Below, piece by piece: positions 1-8,021 of a stretch of DNA of 31,185 nt (its first letter is position 1; every line of letters begins with the position of its first letter). The position numbers were made by a program, and so were the translations under genes. Origin of the DNA: a virus; the IMG/VR virus record IMGVR_UViG_3300030106_005464, positions 1 to 31,185 of that record. One strand, 5' to 3'. Below the pieces are notes generated by a model. That model had not been told where the DNA came from. It worked only from the letters and a program-made list of their open reading frames with translations, and made no database searches.

Positions 1-586
1 AACCATCACCTATTAAATCATATAGCGTTAAAGTAAAATCACAGTTAGGTATTAAAGCCATAGTATTAGCTAATGAGTCGTAGTTGTACATTGTTGAATC
101 AGTACAACCAAAAACTCGCAAAGTAGTGCATGAACCGTCATCTGTATCAGCTAGAGGATTAAACTCTACGTACATCGGATCCATACACCCTGGTATGGGA
201 GGACAAGCATCAGATACAAATACGTGCATTGAGTCATTACCAAAAGCTGGATCATCACCATATACTAATGTATCATTACATTGTATAACATAATACGAAC
301 CATCTAAACCACCCCATAGCGCTCCATTTAACCCATCACCATATGAATCATATATAATAAACGTTAAATCGCCTTCTGGTAAGCATCTCTGCTCTACTAC
401 TGAAGCATAATCAGGTTGAGAACCATAACCAACACCGTAGGTTAATAATGCACCAGAAGTGTCGTAAATGCCCCAACTAGTTTCACTTTGATATTGATCT
501 AAATTTATTACTATAGTAGTTTGTACACAATTTGGTTGTGCAAAATTTATTATTGGTAATAAAAATAAAAATATTAATTTTTTCAT
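1..586 (-). CDS. Secreted Bacteroidota-type protein with calcium-binding-like repeats, truncated at window edge
   Basis: The frame is open from an ATG at 586 to the window edge, giving 195 residues with no stop. Residues 1-17 form a typical Sec signal peptide (MKK, a run of Leu/Ile/Phe, then NFAQ), so export from the host cytoplasm is predicted with cleavage after Ala16. Residues 18-128 look like a beta-sandwich module with an SETSWGIYD segment at 34-42 and a YDSYGDGLNG loop at 79-88. A second similar module starts at 183 (CDFTLTLYDLIGDG). Between them are two GC(M/T)D...N(P/D)xA elements at 133 and 160, the first ending DTDDGSC (147-153). These resemble the thrombospondin-3-like repeats common in secreted Flavobacteriia proteins, which are often type IX secretion cargo; the C-terminus that would carry a sorting domain is outside the window. 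It follows the polyvalent gene by 43 nt with no terminator seen. Function unknown; an adhesin or surface-binding role is an inference. Confidence 0.85.
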   Translation of the reverse strand, partial: MKKLIFLFLLPIINFAQPNCVQTTIVINLDQYQSETSWGIYDTSGALLTYGVGYGSQPDYASVVEQRCLPEGDLTFIIYDSYGDGLNGALWGGLDGSYYVIQCNDTLVYGDDPAFGNDSMHVFVSDACPPIPGCMDPMYVEFNPLADTDDGSCTTLRVFGCTDSTMYNYDSLANTMALIPNCDFTLTLYDLIGDG

Positions 587-629
587 GTGACAATAGTATA
601 TCTATTTAATTACTTGTTTTTTTACTTAT

Positions 630-3600
630 TTACTTTTTTTTATTTAACTCTATTATTTTGTTTATTCTATCTTCTTCATATCTTAAGCTATACGCTTCTC
701 TTTTTGAATAACCTAGTTTTAATAAAATATTTATTTGTTCTTGTTTATTAAGAGCTTTTAAATTGTCAAAAGACATATTTTTTTTAACTGCATCTAATCT
801 TTTTGTCTTTTTTATTTGTTTGCTATTTTTCTTTAATTCTTCTTTAATAGCATTTATTTCGTGATCTTCAACGCCAAGACTCCACTTGTCCCAACCAGCA
901 AATAAAAATACTCTTTGCCAATATTGATTTCTACTATCTAAAGCAGCTCTAATATTTTCTTGTTTTGTATAAAATCTTGCTGTTGGAGCATTAGTAGTAC
1001 CTTCTATTATATTTGCATAAGCCTCCCACATAGGATTATCAATATCAAACGTATTCATTTCAGGTATTACTTTTCTATTGTACTGCATAGTTCTTTCATA
1101 ACTACTAAGCTTTCTAGCTTTAATACCAATTGGTGGTGATAATTGTAATGCTTCTTTAATTATAAGATTATCTTCTTTATTCCAACCTCTTTCTTTTTGT
1201 TGGTGATATTTTATAGCAATATTTTTTATAGTAGATAAAACCGCTCCAGGAATACCACTACCTCTTAATATACTATCAATACTACCACTCAATATTCTGT
1301 CTTTTTTCTGCTCAAAAAACTTTTCGTCTCTTTCATCATCATCAAACATCATAGAAAACATAGCACTTTGTAAAGCGTAAAATATAACGTTTTGTATACC
1401 TCCATAATACAATATTCTAGATAAATTAGACATATCACTTTTTACTTGACTGTCATATGGTGGTGATTTTCTTCTATTTACTATATCTAATGTAGATTTT
1501 TTTATTATTCTAGCATACTGTGAAGTTACGTTTTGAAAAGCAAATATTAATCTACCAAGAGGAGATCTTTGTAAATATGATAATTTATCTGGTCTAGCTG
1601 ACTGCTGTGTAGTTTCAGCAAGTTCCATAAAATCATCAAAAGCTTTCTTTTCTGCTTCTTTTTTTGACAAACCTTGTTTTAAATAAGTATTAACTCTATT
1701 ACGATACATACTAGAACCACCAAGAGCAATAGCAAAACTATCAGCCATTTGCGTAGGTAAAAATCCTTTTTCTAACAAGTAAGATATAGCTGCTCTAACA
1801 GGGTTTTTTGATTTTCCAACAGCGTTAGCTATTTCACTAGCATTTAAATCAAAAGCAGCTCCAGCTCTTCTTTGTTTTAAATAATCTGAGTTAAACAACA
1901 TTGAAAAGTCTGACCAAAATTGTTTTTGATTAGCAAATGCAGCTGCTGATTTAAATATATTATTGTCACCAAAGTTTATAAAGTTAACAGTAGATAATGT
2001 TTGCAGTACAGCTGATCTAACGTTAATAAACATAGTAGCTGCTACAGATCCGTTTATATAATCTAACCATGCATTTACTATTTTATTTGGACCGACATTT
2101 CTATTTGTACCGGTTTTTGATGTGTATAACGTGTCTTGTAAAGCCGCAACAAAACTATCGCCAAACTCAGCTCTAATTTTATTTATATTTTCAGGTGAAA
2201 ATATTATATCAGCATTTTCAATAAACTCTGTAAAAAACTTTTTTCTACCAACTCTACCTGTAGCATCTGCTAAATCTTGTTTTATATTACTAGCAGACCA
2301 ATGATCACCAGGCTCTACATAACCTTCTTTTATTCTTGATATTTTACCTATTTTATTAGCAAAATCTTTTAGTTGTTGATCTGAATTTATAAAATCAATT
2401 AACTCTTTTTTATCTGTTTTACTTAAACCTGGTATTTCAAAACCAGCTTTATCCCATAAATAAACTCTAACCGCATCTTCATGTGTAAAGTCATTATCAG
2501 GTATTTTTTTAATTAACTTTTTACGTATGTCAGGCATTTGCTTTGTAAGATTTCTATAGTCATTAGCTATAGTTTGCTTTGCTATATTTAAATTTCTATA
2601 AGCTCTATTTAAAGGTTGAATTAAAGCTTTTTCAAAAAAATCTCTATGCTTATTACCTTTTTCACCTTTACCTATAAAGTTATACAATAAACCTACAAAA
2701 TCTTCGTGTGATGGTGGTACAAAAAATCTAAACCTACCTTTACCTTCACCACGCTTTCTAGCTTTAGCGTCTGAAAAACGTTTTTTAGAATCAATACCAG
2801 TAACATCTTGTAGTATATCGTTAAATTTTTTATTCATTGATTTACTAAACTTAACTCTAGCTTGAACAGATTTACCTTTAACGTCTAATTGATTTAATAC
2901 ATTTTTAACTGCTTGAACATTTTGTAAAGCGTCATCAACAAAATAAATATCATTATAACCTTCATTTGCATATTTATCTAAAACCCACATGGCTTTTGCT
3001 TCACCAGTGCTATCTCCTAAACCTGTTATGTTTTCTAATGGTATTTTTGCACCTTCAGATTCTAACCAATCATGGATAGCTTGTTGACTTTCAGGAGCTC
3101 TAGCTGTAAGTATAAATACATTTTTAGATCCGTATTTTTTTATTTGATTCTTCATTTTTTGTAAAAGTGGACCAGGTTTACCTTTAGTAACTTTATTAAA
3201 ATCTGTAAAATCAAACTCATAGCCTTGCTCTTTAAGCGTTTCACCAACAAGAGGCCAGTCTTCAGAAGCTATTTTTTCTGTTAAATTACCTTTTTTAGCT
3301 ATAACAAAATTTTCACTTATACCAACAGTTTCATCAAAATCAAATATACTAGCACCTTTTAGTTTAGAAAAAGAAGATGTTTTTCTAGCGTTTTCAATAG
3401 CTTTGTTTGCGAGATTTACTTTGTCAGATATTTGTTGTGACTTAGAAAATTTAAATTTAACGTTTTTATTATCTTTTTTGTTTATTAAGCTAACGTTTTG
3501 TTTTTTGAAAAACAAAGAGTTAAGCTGAGGTTCTATTCTAACAGAAGTAGTACGATGAGTTTTAGCTTTGTTTAATGATGCAAAAACAACTCTAGCTGTA

Positions 3601-6600
3601 AAAGGTATAGGTGCTTTTTGATCTGCAAAATTACTTAGACCTTCTATCTGTAATTCAGAATCAACGCTCATATTAAACATACCAGCGTTACCCATGTCTA
3701 TAACATGACTAGGTTTTGGAGTATCATCTTTACCTTTCTTTTGTTGATATGAATTAGCAACATCGCCTGTCGTAATAAATTGTATATTTTTAAATATAGG
3801 TAAATGAACACCTTGTTTTTTAATAATATTAACAGCGTCTTGAGTAAGTTGTAAATTACCACGATTACTAAATCTATAGCCATCTTTACCTATGGTTTCT
3901 TCAATAGCTTTAATCATAAAATCAAAAACTTCATTAGCTGTTTTTATTAATAATTCTTCTTTTGTTTTATAATTATCTGTTTCTTTTTTACCTTGAGCTA
4001 GTTTAGTTTTTTCTAATTTTCTTGTATTTTTTTTATAATTAAAAGTTACAGAAATACCTCTAGCTGTATTACCTTTTATTTCTATAGCTAATACAGTCCT
4101 TCCGTTTTTAGTTATTACAACATCTGGATTATTGTCTTTTTCAGATAATTTTTTAACTTTATATACTTTAGAATATCCTGCTTTTTTAAATATATCTTTT
4201 AATCTATTTGAAGCTATTAACTCATATTTTCTATGAATAGGCATATTTTTTTTAATAGCATTTAATTCTTGTTTACTTATAGCATCTTCAGATATATTAA
4301 ACTGTTCTTGATCTCTTTTAACATATTCATCAATAACTATTCTTTTTGTAACGCCGTCAATATTTTTATTATCTAAGTATTTTTGAAAGTTTTTACCCAT
4401 AAAACCATCATCTTTGCCTTTACCATATATTATGTTTAAACCTTTTTGCGAGTCAGAAGTACTAATGCTAAACTTAACGTTTGGATCTCTATTTATTTGA
4501 TCTGCTAAAGCTTGTATATTGTCTTCAGCTAAAGTTTCTCCATTTAAAGCAGCTATGTCTGCTCTTTTTTGCATTACTTCAGGTTCTTGAGCAACTTCCA
4601 TTGTAGCATCGTAAGCTAAAGCCCCAGACATATACTTTGCTAATTGATCTTTTCTAGTACCTTTTAAACCAGATCTTTTACCTGTTACAGGGTTTATAGA
4701 TGGTTGATCAAAAAACTTTATAAACTGCTCTTCAGTAGGCATAACTTTTTTGTAAAGATTTACAGCTTGACCTTTATCTATAACGTTAAGAGCAGATGGT
4801 GGAAGTAAGTTTTGATCAACTGCATTTTGCACTTCTTCTTTGCTAGTTAATTGTTTTACAAATTTAGTAAATACTTTTTTATCATCAGCAACTTCTCTTT
4901 CTAATTGAACTAAATCAGCTGTAAACATAACATCTACTATTGCTTCTCTAAAGTTTTTTAAATTACTTATATAAGTGTTTGTACCTAAAAAGTTTTTTAT
5001 TGTTTTAAACAAATACGTATTAGCTTCATTTCTTAAATTTCTCTGCACATTTCTAGCTGGTTTACCAGACTCGTAAGCTCTTATTAAAGCTTTACGAGCA
5101 GAATCTAAAACTCTATTGTATATTTCACTACCGGTAGCAATACCGAGTTGTTTTCTAAACTTAGAAGTTTTTTGTATTTTCTTTTTATTAGCTTCTACTT
5201 TTCTTTTAATTCTAGCTGCTATAGATAAATCTTCTGTTTCAAGAGCTTTTGTAGGAGCGTCTGTTTCAGCTGCAACTTGTACTTTTACTTCACCTTCTCT
5301 TGTTGTTTGACCTATATCTACAGTAGGTGCTGTTACTTGGCCTTTTGTAATAGCATTATAAGCTTGTTTTGCTCTATTAGCTATTTGAGGATTAATATGC
5401 CCAAATAAACCACTAGGGTTTTTTCTTTCAGGTTGATATTTTTTAAACCAAGAATAAAGCTCTGTATAAGTGCTATCTAAAAAAGTTTTATTATCAACAC
5501 CTTCGTGCGGCTGAGCTAGTATAAGTCCATCTAATAATCCTTTTTTACGTATTTTTTTATATATATTTTCAGCTTCTGCTTCAAAATAAAAATTACCTAA
5601 ACCTTTTTGCTCTAAATCAATAACAACACCGTCTTTAGTTTCAAGTGTTTTACCAAGTTTATTTATAGACTTTTCTTCTGTTTTAGATGCTTTTGCAGTT
5701 GGAGTTCTTAACACATCTGTACCTTCTTTAAATCTTTTGTCTTCTTTAGGTTCTAAACCTTTAAGCTTAACTTTAGCTATACCTCTTGCTGTTAGTTTAT
5801 TAAGTATACTAGCTCTATTTATATTAGTGTTATAATCAACTAAAAAGTCAAATACTTGCTGTCCGTTTTGAAAATCAACTTCACCAAAACCAAAACCTCT
5901 AAGTAAAGATCTAAAAGAGTTTTTTATACCAGTAGACTTAGATTCAACAGCTTCTATTTTATTCTTTTTTATTATATCAGAAAATATATTAAAATATTCT
6001 TCTTGATTAGCCTCATCTTTTGTTTTAACTAAACCGTGATTATCTCTTATAATATCACCATCACTGTCTAAAGCATCGTATTGAGTTGCTAGTCTAGCTT
6101 CTATATCAGCAACAAGATCAGCTTGCCCAATGTCGTTTAAATATTTAACAAATTCAGATACAGATCCTTTTAAAGCAGATTTACCTATTTTACTACTAAA
6201 AGCTCTAGAAACAATAGCATGTAAATATTCGTGACCAAGAACATTTGTTTGTCCAGTTGCAGCAGCTGCTTTTACATTTATATATATTTTATTTTTACCA
6301 CCTGTATTATCATAAAACATACCATCAGCAGCATTAAAACCTTTAAACTTATTATTTAATTCTTGTACTCTTGAATCAGAAGTAACATATTCTATGTCTA
6401 AATTGTCTTTATTAAATCCAAAAAACTTTTTTTGTTCTAATATTTTTTCTGTGTTTTTTAAAACTTGTCCTAAAAAAACTTCTAAATCAGCATCATAATT
6501 AAGATCTGTACCTTTAAAAAATTTATTATTAGCTTTAATAGCTTTTTGATATTCTTTTTTAGCTTTCTCTCTTGTTTTATTATCTATACGATTATCAAGC

Positions 6601-8021
6601 ATTATGTCTAGCTGCTCGTGTCTTTTATCTATATTTTCAGCATATTTTTTCTTAGCTTTATCTGTCATGCTATCAAAAAAACTAAACAGATTAGCTTTGT
6701 TAACTTCTTTTTTCTTTTTTAATGCATCTATTTCTTTATCAATAATATCTTTAGTTTTACCTTTTGCTTTGTCAGAATTTTTAGTTAAATTTATTATTTC
6801 TTCTTCTATTTTTAACTGTTCTTGTTTATATTGATCAGTGGCAACATACTCGTATATATCTTGTTTTTTTAAGCCTGCAAAAGAAACACCTGTAGAACCA
6901 GCACCTAAAAATCCACCAATAAAACCATCTTTAAAAAACGTTCTTAAAAGTGATTTAAATGTAACTTTATCGCCATAACTCCAAGCTTTTGATAAATCTT
7001 GAGTAACACCAGTTAATCCTTCAGTGGTAAACTCACTAGCAAAACCTAATCCCATTTTTTTAGCTATTGTTTGGGGTAATTTTGTTAATAAGTCAACAGC
7101 TTTTTCTTTGCCTACGCCTTTACCTATAATATTATTTATAAGTCTACCACCAATTAATTCCATAACAAAATCAGAAGAACCTGTTATAATAGAATCTTTA
7201 ACAACTTGATTACGCGTTGTTTCGTCATTAAAACCTCTTTTATACATTTCTCTTTCAAAGTTGTCCATGTAAGCGCCAGCGCCTAACATTGCCGCTCCAA
7301 TACCATATGGAAGTCTACTAATTATTAAAGAAGGAATAGCACCAAATGCATCGTTTGTAAAAGCGTCAGCAGCATCTCCATATCTTCCTTGTTCAACTAA
7401 AGACAGATAATCCATAGGATTTCCATTTTCATCTCTGTAAACATAAGTGTGTTTATCAAACCAATCTAAAACACCTTCAAACTTAACTCTATTTGTTGGG
7501 TCTAAAGCTTGAGCTTGTTCTAATGATAAACCTTTTTCTCTAGCTTCTAGCATATGAGTTTCGTATAATTCTTTTCTACTGCCTGGTGACATAAGGTCAA
7601 AACCAAGAATTTGATTTGGTATATTATAACCTCTATCTCTAAGTAAGTCTGCTGCTTCACCAGCAACAAACTCTATTGGATTTTCAAAAATAGTTTCACC
7701 TATATAACCATACTCACCAGTTTCATATCCTTTATAAAGATTATCAATAACACTAACAACGTTTTTACCAAGATTAGCTCCATAACTTTTTAAATAATCA
7801 ATAGCATTTCGCTCATCTTCATCTGGCTCTCTTTGCTCGCCATATACAACATTTTGATCGTAAACGTTTGTTTTATTAAAATTAAAACCACTTGTATCTG
7901 TATGAAAAGCTGTTGTGTCTTCGTTTTCTTCTTTATATTGACGTATAAAATCTTTTATTTCTTGATCAGACTTACCTTCACGTAATAATTGAGAAACTAA
8001 AGCTTGTAATTTTTCATCCAT
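630..8021 (-). CDS. Giant polyvalent virion/ejection protein (metalloprotease-like, nuclease-like and HAD domains)
   Basis: A 2463-residue protein, probably carried in the capsid and injected with the DNA. Visible parts in order: an N-terminal helical segment (1-33); a Gly/Ala-rich, partly hydrophobic region (about 220-390) that could contact membrane; a zinc-peptidase motif HEYLH at 597-601 with a possible third ligand in a later EEYFNIFSD segment; a PD-(D/E)XK nuclease-like core with Asp1300, Glu1314 and Lys1316; a HAD-type phosphatase with DFDET at 1561-1565, the Thr of LTAR at 1639 and a DD pair at 1696-1697; and a long helical C-terminal region of the kind seen in phage large polyvalent proteins. 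Position at the end of the structural operon, after two other internal-protein candidates, fits an ejection role. Start is 5 nt after the preceding stop. The fold assignments come from motifs read by eye; activity of each domain is inferred. Confidence 0.85.
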   Translation of the reverse strand: MDEKLQALVSQLLREGKSDQEIKDFIRQYKEENEDTTAFHTDTSGFNFNKTNVYDQNVVYGEQREPDEDERNAIDYLKSYGANLGKNVVSVIDNLYKGYETGEYGYIGETIFENPIEFVAGEAADLLRDRGYNIPNQILGFDLMSPGSRKELYETHMLEAREKGLSLEQAQALDPTNRVKFEGVLDWFDKHTYVYRDENGNPMDYLSLVEQGRYGDAADAFTNDAFGAIPSLIISRLPYGIGAAMLGAGAYMDNFEREMYKRGFNDETTRNQVVKDSIITGSSDFVMELIGGRLINNIIGKGVGKEKAVDLLTKLPQTIAKKMGLGFASEFTTEGLTGVTQDLSKAWSYGDKVTFKSLLRTFFKDGFIGGFLGAGSTGVSFAGLKKQDIYEYVATDQYKQEQLKIEEEIINLTKNSDKAKGKTKDIIDKEIDALKKKKEVNKANLFSFFDSMTDKAKKKYAENIDKRHEQLDIMLDNRIDNKTREKAKKEYQKAIKANNKFFKGTDLNYDADLEVFLGQVLKNTEKILEQKKFFGFNKDNLDIEYVTSDSRVQELNNKFKGFNAADGMFYDNTGGKNKIYINVKAAAATGQTNVLGHEYLHAIVSRAFSSKIGKSALKGSVSEFVKYLNDIGQADLVADIEARLATQYDALDSDGDIIRDNHGLVKTKDEANQEEYFNIFSDIIKKNKIEAVESKSTGIKNSFRSLLRGFGFGEVDFQNGQQVFDFLVDYNTNINRASILNKLTARGIAKVKLKGLEPKEDKRFKEGTDVLRTPTAKASKTEEKSINKLGKTLETKDGVVIDLEQKGLGNFYFEAEAENIYKKIRKKGLLDGLILAQPHEGVDNKTFLDSTYTELYSWFKKYQPERKNPSGLFGHINPQIANRAKQAYNAITKGQVTAPTVDIGQTTREGEVKVQVAAETDAPTKALETEDLSIAARIKRKVEANKKKIQKTSKFRKQLGIATGSEIYNRVLDSARKALIRAYESGKPARNVQRNLRNEANTYLFKTIKNFLGTNTYISNLKNFREAIVDVMFTADLVQLEREVADDKKVFTKFVKQLTSKEEVQNAVDQNLLPPSALNVIDKGQAVNLYKKVMPTEEQFIKFFDQPSINPVTGKRSGLKGTRKDQLAKYMSGALAYDATMEVAQEPEVMQKRADIAALNGETLAEDNIQALADQINRDPNVKFSISTSDSQKGLNIIYGKGKDDGFMGKNFQKYLDNKNIDGVTKRIVIDEYVKRDQEQFNISEDAISKQELNAIKKNMPIHRKYELIASNRLKDIFKKAGYSKVYKVKKLSEKDNNPDVVITKNGRTVLAIEIKGNTARGISVTFNYKKNTRKLEKTKLAQGKKETDNYKTKEELLIKTANEVFDFMIKAIEETIGKDGYRFSNRGNLQLTQDAVNIIKKQGVHLPIFKNIQFITTGDVANSYQQKKGKDDTPKPSHVIDMGNAGMFNMSVDSELQIEGLSNFADQKAPIPFTARVVFASLNKAKTHRTTSVRIEPQLNSLFFKKQNVSLINKKDNKNVKFKFSKSQQISDKVNLANKAIENARKTSSFSKLKGASIFDFDETVGISENFVIAKKGNLTEKIASEDWPLVGETLKEQGYEFDFTDFNKVTKGKPGPLLQKMKNQIKKYGSKNVFILTARAPESQQAIHDWLESEGAKIPLENITGLGDSTGEAKAMWVLDKYANEGYNDIYFVDDALQNVQAVKNVLNQLDVKGKSVQARVKFSKSMNKKFNDILQDVTGIDSKKRFSDAKARKRGEGKGRFRFFVPPSHEDFVGLLYNFIGKGEKGNKHRDFFEKALIQPLNRAYRNLNIAKQTIANDYRNLTKQMPDIRKKLIKKIPDNDFTHEDAVRVYLWDKAGFEIPGLSKTDKKELIDFINSDQQLKDFANKIGKISRIKEGYVEPGDHWSASNIKQDLADATGRVGRKKFFTEFIENADIIFSPENINKIRAEFGDSFVAALQDTLYTSKTGTNRNVGPNKIVNAWLDYINGSVAATMFINVRSAVLQTLSTVNFINFGDNNIFKSAAAFANQKQFWSDFSMLFNSDYLKQRRAGAAFDLNASEIANAVGKSKNPVRAAISYLLEKGFLPTQMADSFAIALGGSSMYRNRVNTYLKQGLSKKEAEKKAFDDFMELAETTQQSARPDKLSYLQRSPLGRLIFAFQNVTSQYARIIKKSTLDIVNRRKSPPYDSQVKSDMSNLSRILYYGGIQNVIFYALQSAMFSMMFDDDERDEKFFEQKKDRILSGSIDSILRGSGIPGAVLSTIKNIAIKYHQQKERGWNKEDNLIIKEALQLSPPIGIKARKLSSYERTMQYNRKVIPEMNTFDIDNPMWEAYANIIEGTTNAPTARFYTKQENIRAALDSRNQYWQRVFLFAGWDKWSLGVEDHEINAIKEELKKNSKQIKKTKRLDAVKKNMSFDNLKALNKQEQINILLKLGYSKREAYSLRYEEDRINKIIELNKKK

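Follow-up and report, generated by a model that had tools for sequence, protein, structure and literature searches.

Why would a phage encode, at the end of a long run of virion-type genes, a protein that looks equipped for secretion by its host? The locus that raises this question lies at one end of the window, i.e., the whole stretch of DNA analyzed, which is a linear virus record of 31,185 bases with all long open reading frames (ORFs) on the minus strand. A terminase-like ORF comes first, followed by the portal and capsid genes, a group of smaller genes, the gene for a 3212-aa protein, further small genes, a giant gene for a 2463-aa protein, and the gene in question, from here on the cargo gene. 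In the matches listed, the major capsid protein (MCP) is 38-45% identical to those of podoviruses of Flavobacterium and of Maribacter phage Panino; 85 records match it, with 15 Cellulophaga phages among them. Judged from its sequence and from those of its relatives, the cargo gene is best explained as phage-borne cargo of the type IX secretion system (T9SS) of the host.

The window ends within a gene for a repeat protein with a signal peptide

The cargo ORF (586..2, minus strand) has an ATG start, begins MKKLIFLFLLPIINFAQ, and is open to the contig end, where it is truncated at its 3' end after 195 aa of the ~620 codons expected from the nearest complete relatives, L012 and L002 (621-624 aa). 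An earlier reading of the window from its letters (the sequence-only reading) had proposed a minus-strand gene with a signal peptide at this end. This gene is real, and its hydrophobic start (aa 1-16; 539..586, minus strand) is followed by Gln17, before which cleavage is expected according to the Bacteroidetes Q-rule, i.e., Gln directly after the signal peptide cleavage site (PMC5837995). The 43-nt gap described between the preceding ORF and the cargo gene was also confirmed (587..629, minus strand), the 2463-aa ORF stopping at 630, and the two genes are in the same order in L012 and L011. YGDG loops had been pointed out as well, and both YDSYGDG and YDLIGDG are present in the window protein. 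The former is part of the YDSYGDGLNG loop of an N-terminal beta domain (aa ~20-130; 197..529, minus strand), in which D80, Y82, G83, D84, G85, and G88 are invariant across 13 relatives.

The first GCxD...DDGSC repeat (aa 133-153; 128..190, minus strand) is a complete GCMD...DDGSC unit, but the second (aa 160-182; 41..109, minus strand) is degenerate and reads GCTDSTMYNYDSLANT...NC, with G160, C161, D163, and C182 invariant in 13 relatives. The repeat-unit pattern occurred in 0 of 100,000 shuffles of the cargo protein. With one complete and one degenerate unit in the window, the plural "repeats" of the sequence-only reading is borne out only by the full-length relatives, in which each complete copy has 5-21 GCxD...DDGSC-type units, mostly 26 aa apart. 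The dN/dS values of the window gene against seven relatives were 0.045-0.155, which supports that the cargo gene is under strong purifying selection.

The 2463-aa gene (630..8021, minus strand; neighbor cluster c3) lies directly upstream of the cargo gene, and 40 loci have a homologue of it near their cargo gene, in most cases on the upstream side. It is plausible that this is a virion gene; a search of the family library returned no confident or significant family match for its product. The giant protein contains the sequence GHEYLHA, which is HExxH metallopeptidase-like, and a DFDET...DD stretch that resembles HAD phosphatases, and no library match accounts for it.

The cargo gene is present in at least two phage backbones

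In a scan of IMG/VR, 61 loci in other viral contigs were found to encode cargo relatives. The sequence-only reading had suggested a search of Bacteroidota genomes and phages with the 195 window residues. Flavobacteriales genomes contain the same modules; cultured phages have no direct relative of the 195 residues or of the barrel-like and coiled-coil genes described below. The closest relative, L012, encodes a 97% identical protein at a 53-nt spacing from the same giant gene directly upstream, and L011 has the giant gene directly upstream of the cargo gene as in the window. Because these are independent contigs with the same gene order, we rejected the possibility, raised together with the original proposal, that the contig is a chimera at its end.

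Among the tested relatives of the window MCP, all eight records of ≥40 kb carry the cargo gene; shorter records mostly lack it, as expected of fragments. The window-type capsid protein was found in 33 of 46 cargo-bearing records and was absent from several long ones (up to 119 kb). At two of these long loci, L016 and L023, the cargo gene is accompanied by other virion proteins than those of the window type, and it is, therefore, present in at least two phage backbones.

The GCTD repeats alone match proteins of cyanophage S-CAM3 and marine virus AG-345-P14; the S-CAM3 protein, with GCTD-type repeats of ~52% identity (NC_031906.1 36811-36966), is annotated as virion structural. A plasmid search gave only weak matches to Vibrio megaplasmids. 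A ~63-kb contig binned in a Sphingobacteriales metagenome-assembled genome (L063; JAAXIF010000025.1, G001:C28) has the cargo gene in the arrangement with neighboring genes described below and a 67% identical capsid protein, supporting that it is a phage contig, and its bin may point to a host. In the phage record that contains L004, the capsid gene (G126:C1:5845-7325) is split over two frames with an internal TAG and TAA, reflecting a sequencing error, a decayed copy, or recoding.

Architecture of full-length cargo proteins

The complete cargo copies have a length of 611-1053 aa and are composed of a signal peptide, at least one N-terminal beta domain with YxxYGDGxxG loops, a second beta domain, the repeats, a Cys-rich domain (YCCENEWDTICQ), and the tail at the C-terminus. 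Signal peptides were judged from sequence: in all 56 family members whose start is visible, including the window copy, a hydrophobic stretch precedes a small residue and Gln. In the four cargo copies counted, we found 29-64 cysteines and a strong acidic excess in all. AlphaFold models of the repeat region had pLDDT values of <50, a confidence too low for use. The second beta domain has a weak structural likeness to CBM60 (2xfd, Z 7.3); matches of the beta domain to CBM60, PLAT/C2-like, and lipoxygenase folds were given no weight since Z scores of 6-7 are in the background range.

Cargo proteins end in one of two C-terminal tails

We scored the C-terminal tails of 44 complete cargo copies, and all 44 had one of two types, i.e., 10 had a type A sorting domain (PF18962/TIGR04183) and 34 had a tail without a name. 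Type A domains scored above the curated cut-offs in L017, L040, L055, L056, and L059; in these five scanned members, E values were 1.7e-11 to 2e-7 for PF18962 and up to 1.6e-10 for TIGR04183, and neither domain was found in the scanned members with the unnamed tail. The modeled type A domain of L017 (residues 685-754; pLDDT ~80) matched 8glk_D with a Z score of 9.0 (2.0 Å over 68 aa, 31% identity) and 8glj_D with a Z score of 8.8; 8glk and 8glj contain cargo C-terminal domains bound in T9SS translocon structures. Independently of the model, the family profile also matched 8glk_D by sequence (E 2e-5).

The sequence-only reading had asked whether a type IX sorting domain would appear once the gene was extended beyond the window edge. 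Relatives that extend past this edge have PF18962, and others carry a tail of host secreted proteins, so that either tail supports the idea of an exported, host-like secreted protein. The opposing idea that the full gene encodes a tail fiber or receptor-binding protein that is not exported was rejected based on the signal peptide together with the sorting domain. The C-terminus of the window copy is outside the contig; since L012 and L002, which are 97% identical to it and its nearest complete relatives, both have the unnamed tail, the window copy likely has this type as well. Altogether, we have good confidence that the cargo family is exported via the surface-sorting route of the host, a judgment that concerns export and not purpose.

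The unnamed tail recurs in Flavobacteriales genomes and alternates with type A domains in phages

The unnamed tail consists of ~38 aa with the pattern LGRP...YIYxDGTVEKK (also given as LGRx...). Neither phage nor host tails matched an NCBIfam family, a sorting domain in Pfam, or a curated T9SS type A, B, or C model, and comparison with the type A tails of the phages gave no profile similarity (hhalign probability 1%). A profile made from the tails of 13 phage and 2 host proteins detected the tail in 43 of 99 Flavobacteriales genomes, mainly those 0.8-2 Mb in size, with as many as 51 copies per genome; phylum-wide, it was detected in 2 of 118 genomes, one of which is the center genome itself. 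In all 17 host ORFs inspected, 2 of which come from genomes that supplied the host seeds of the profile, the tail closes the C-terminus, always at 9 residues from the stop, and most of the ORFs with a visible start have an N-terminal signal peptide followed by Gln. sprA is present in 42 of the 43 tail-bearing Flavobacteriales compared to 43 of the 56 without the tail (Fisher p 0.003, a comparison confounded by ancestry), and the sole tail-bearing genome without sprA is a metagenome-assembled genome that still has 51 type A tails. The unnamed tail, thus, has the general properties of a T9SS sorting signal, i.e., a C-terminal position on many unrelated signal peptide-containing proteins in T9SS-positive genomes.

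In a tree of the cargo core, the two tails were swapped at least 5-6 times, and at least 5 of these swaps are forced by well-supported branches. For instance, L040 and L038 share 95.5% identity as far as the Cys-rich domain, beyond which their tails are unrelated, one being of type A and the other unnamed. Since the two tails have replaced each other in at least five events on proteins that are otherwise alike, the unnamed tail, too, is probably a sorting signal of the T9SS type, and the simplest explanation of the swaps would be that both tails perform the same job. A review of the known T9SS signals names types A, B, and C only (PMC10202324). We lean toward the interpretation that the tail represents an undescribed class of T9SS signal, with dozens of tagged proteins per genome in marine Flavobacteriales that have streamlined genomes. 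The phage tail swaps would then demonstrate its interchangeability with type A, and the phages would pair the tagged cargo with an export/anchoring cassette of their own. It is unlikely, by comparison, that the tail directs proteins to a different outer membrane route and that the phages alternate between two pathways. Such a route would agree with the lack of profile similarity to type A, with the lack of a sorting-domain match in Pfam or NCBIfam, and with a length of only ~38 aa, which is shorter than a type A domain, but it sits poorly with the direct exchange of the tail for type A domains on proteins that are nearly identical and with the presence of SprA in 42 of 43 tail-bearing genomes. 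The tail swaps are a direct and testable lead to a new secretion signal on many proteins of small-genome marine Flavobacteriales.

The cargo gene is accompanied by a conserved cassette

In the 53 loci that extend ≥5 kb upstream of the cargo gene, three genes recur beside it, i.e., a gene for a thioredoxin-like exported protein of 106-130 aa (52 of 53 loci), a gene for a coiled-coil protein of ~93 aa with one transmembrane segment (52 of 53), and a gene for a barrel-like signal-peptide protein of ~360 aa (48 of 53). The barrel-like protein (L012:11869-12960 and 49 other loci) is highly conserved and has an aromatic C-terminus of the outer membrane type, with F as the last residue in 37 of 49 copies; its gene overlaps the end of the cargo gene by 1-4 nt in several loci. 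Among 26 members analyzed using Pfam and NCBIfam, and using a profile against PDB sequences, there was no match to any family, including PorP/SprF and PorV, and an assignment to these proteins, therefore, has no sequence support. A search of 99 Flavobacteriales for a host source of the barrel-like gene gave no match, this search being one without a positive control.

The thioredoxin-like gene (L012:13243-13605 and 53 other loci) directly adjoins or overlaps the cargo gene in 14 loci. Its product matches only part of the PF00085 fold (E 4e-5), reads WNxxN at the active-site position, and has a CxxC anywhere in the sequence in 2 of 54 copies; in cultured phages, there were only weak matches to Streptomyces phage thioredoxins. 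Because the CxxC is missing, this protein is unlikely to be a disulfide enzyme, and we rejected it as a disulfide oxidase for the Cys-rich cargo. The three cassette proteins probably serve the same envelope function as the cargo.

Possible functions of the cargo protein

Marine Bacteroidota phages with at least two backbones, thus, have a conserved late gene for a protein with signals for the surface-secretion machine of the host, and this combination implies that infection may redecorate the cell exterior. In the pathway that we propose, the cargo would be made late in infection, cross the inner membrane by Sec, fold with many disulfides in the periplasm, be taken through SprA via its C-terminal tail, and finally either remain on the surface of the infected cell or be released from it. 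Our tentative first choice for its purpose is that it would mask or occupy the surface of the host and thereby keep phage from adsorbing any longer to the infected cell or to its debris. The only hint for this purpose is that the repeats are shared with tail-region proteins of relatives: homologues of the 3212-aa tail-region protein have 1-3 GCxD...DDGSC-type repeats near the C-terminus (L254:720-7880, L255:3-7460, and L256:521-6805), and the window's own 3212-aa protein has none. By analogy, if a version of a virion module were displayed on the cell surface, it could take up receptors and prevent superinfection.

These shared repeats could also be read as a sign that the cargo is itself a virion appendage, either exported and then attached to progeny virions outside the cell or a tail or head fiber with an incidental signal peptide. 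The location of the cargo gene between a giant virion-like gene and a tail-fiber/endolysin module and the annotation of the S-CAM3 protein with the same repeats as virion structural point in this direction. Nevertheless, we regard an appendage as rather improbable, because a Q-rule Sec signal and a T9SS sorting domain would export the protein from the cytoplasm, where capsids are assembled, and the repeated exchange of host sorting tails is sensible only for export. An adhesin or aggregation factor, which would make the infected cell sticky to cells, particles, or glycans and release progeny among new hosts, is possible albeit doubtful. With its long acidic stalk of Cys repeats and its two beta domains, the cargo is similar to secreted host proteins made of the same modules, and its second beta domain is weakly similar to CBM60 (2xfd, Z 7.3), but Z scores of 6-7 are within the range for unrelated folds. 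We consider it very unlikely that the exported cassette of barrel-like, coiled-coil, thioredoxin-like, and cargo proteins readies the outer membrane for lysis. Although the cargo gene is co-located with an M15 endolysin gene and forms tight operons with the gene for the coiled-coil protein, a candidate spanin or holin part, known lysis proteins do not resemble a secreted repeat protein of 600-1000 aa and have no need of a surface-sorting tail. The tail swaps also offer a way to ask what phages gain by rewriting the host surface.

Relation to host proteins and to known secreted phage proteins

The sequence-only reading had considered a captured host gene. In line with a host derivation, the N-terminal beta domain also occurs in secreted Flavobacteriales proteins with E values down to 1e-28, and secreted proteins of this order have the same N-terminal domain, the same repeats, and both tails. 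However, the phage copies formed one group in a tree of the domain (SH-aLRT 85, based on few columns with long branches and few sampled host copies), apart from the few host copies, so that any capture looks old. The sequences are in line with an old capture that was followed by spread among phages. The secreted GCTD/DDGSC repeat proteins of marine Flavobacteriales share the repeats and the two tails with the phage cargo, and several also share the N-terminal domain, but they tend to be larger and to combine these parts with other modules, and the grouping of the phage copies apart from them has modest support. Type A cargo proteins of Flavobacteriia (PF18962/TIGR04183; NucA and FspA C-terminal domains in 8glk/8glj) share the signal peptide and the C-terminal domain with about one-fourth of the cargo family, and the modeled fold matches; by contrast, the present family is phage encoded, and most of its members, including the nearest complete relatives of the window copy, have a different tail.

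T9SS cargo of type B with cognate PorP/SprF shuttle barrels (PMC12618676, PMC10202324) is similar in that a cargo gene adjoins a gene for a barrel-like protein, with the two genes overlapping or abutting in several phages, but the phage neighbor has no PorP/SprF or PorV match and the tail has no type B model match. Proteins of Porphyromonas gingivalis phages have signal peptides that obey the Q-rule, as in the cargo family, and the text of that paper mentions neither T9SS nor sorting domains (PMC10367356). T9SS sorting domains also occur near crAss-BACON proteins (PMC6949934). The one clear precedent for phage-encoded T9SS cargo is Cryophage, for which such cargo was reported and superinfection exclusion was also raised (Bellas et al. 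2020, PMC7468147); these are proteins of Bacteroidota phages with T9SS type A sorting domains, as in the cargo family. The Cryophage cargo consists of an endoglucanase, a GH39 protein, and a PA14 protein and is strain-variable, whereas in the present family, both the repeat protein and its export cassette are conserved, the tails are of two interchangeable types, and the gene occurs in at least two phage backbones. The family, thus, differs from the known phage cases in being conserved and modular and in having its own cassette and a second, unnamed tail.
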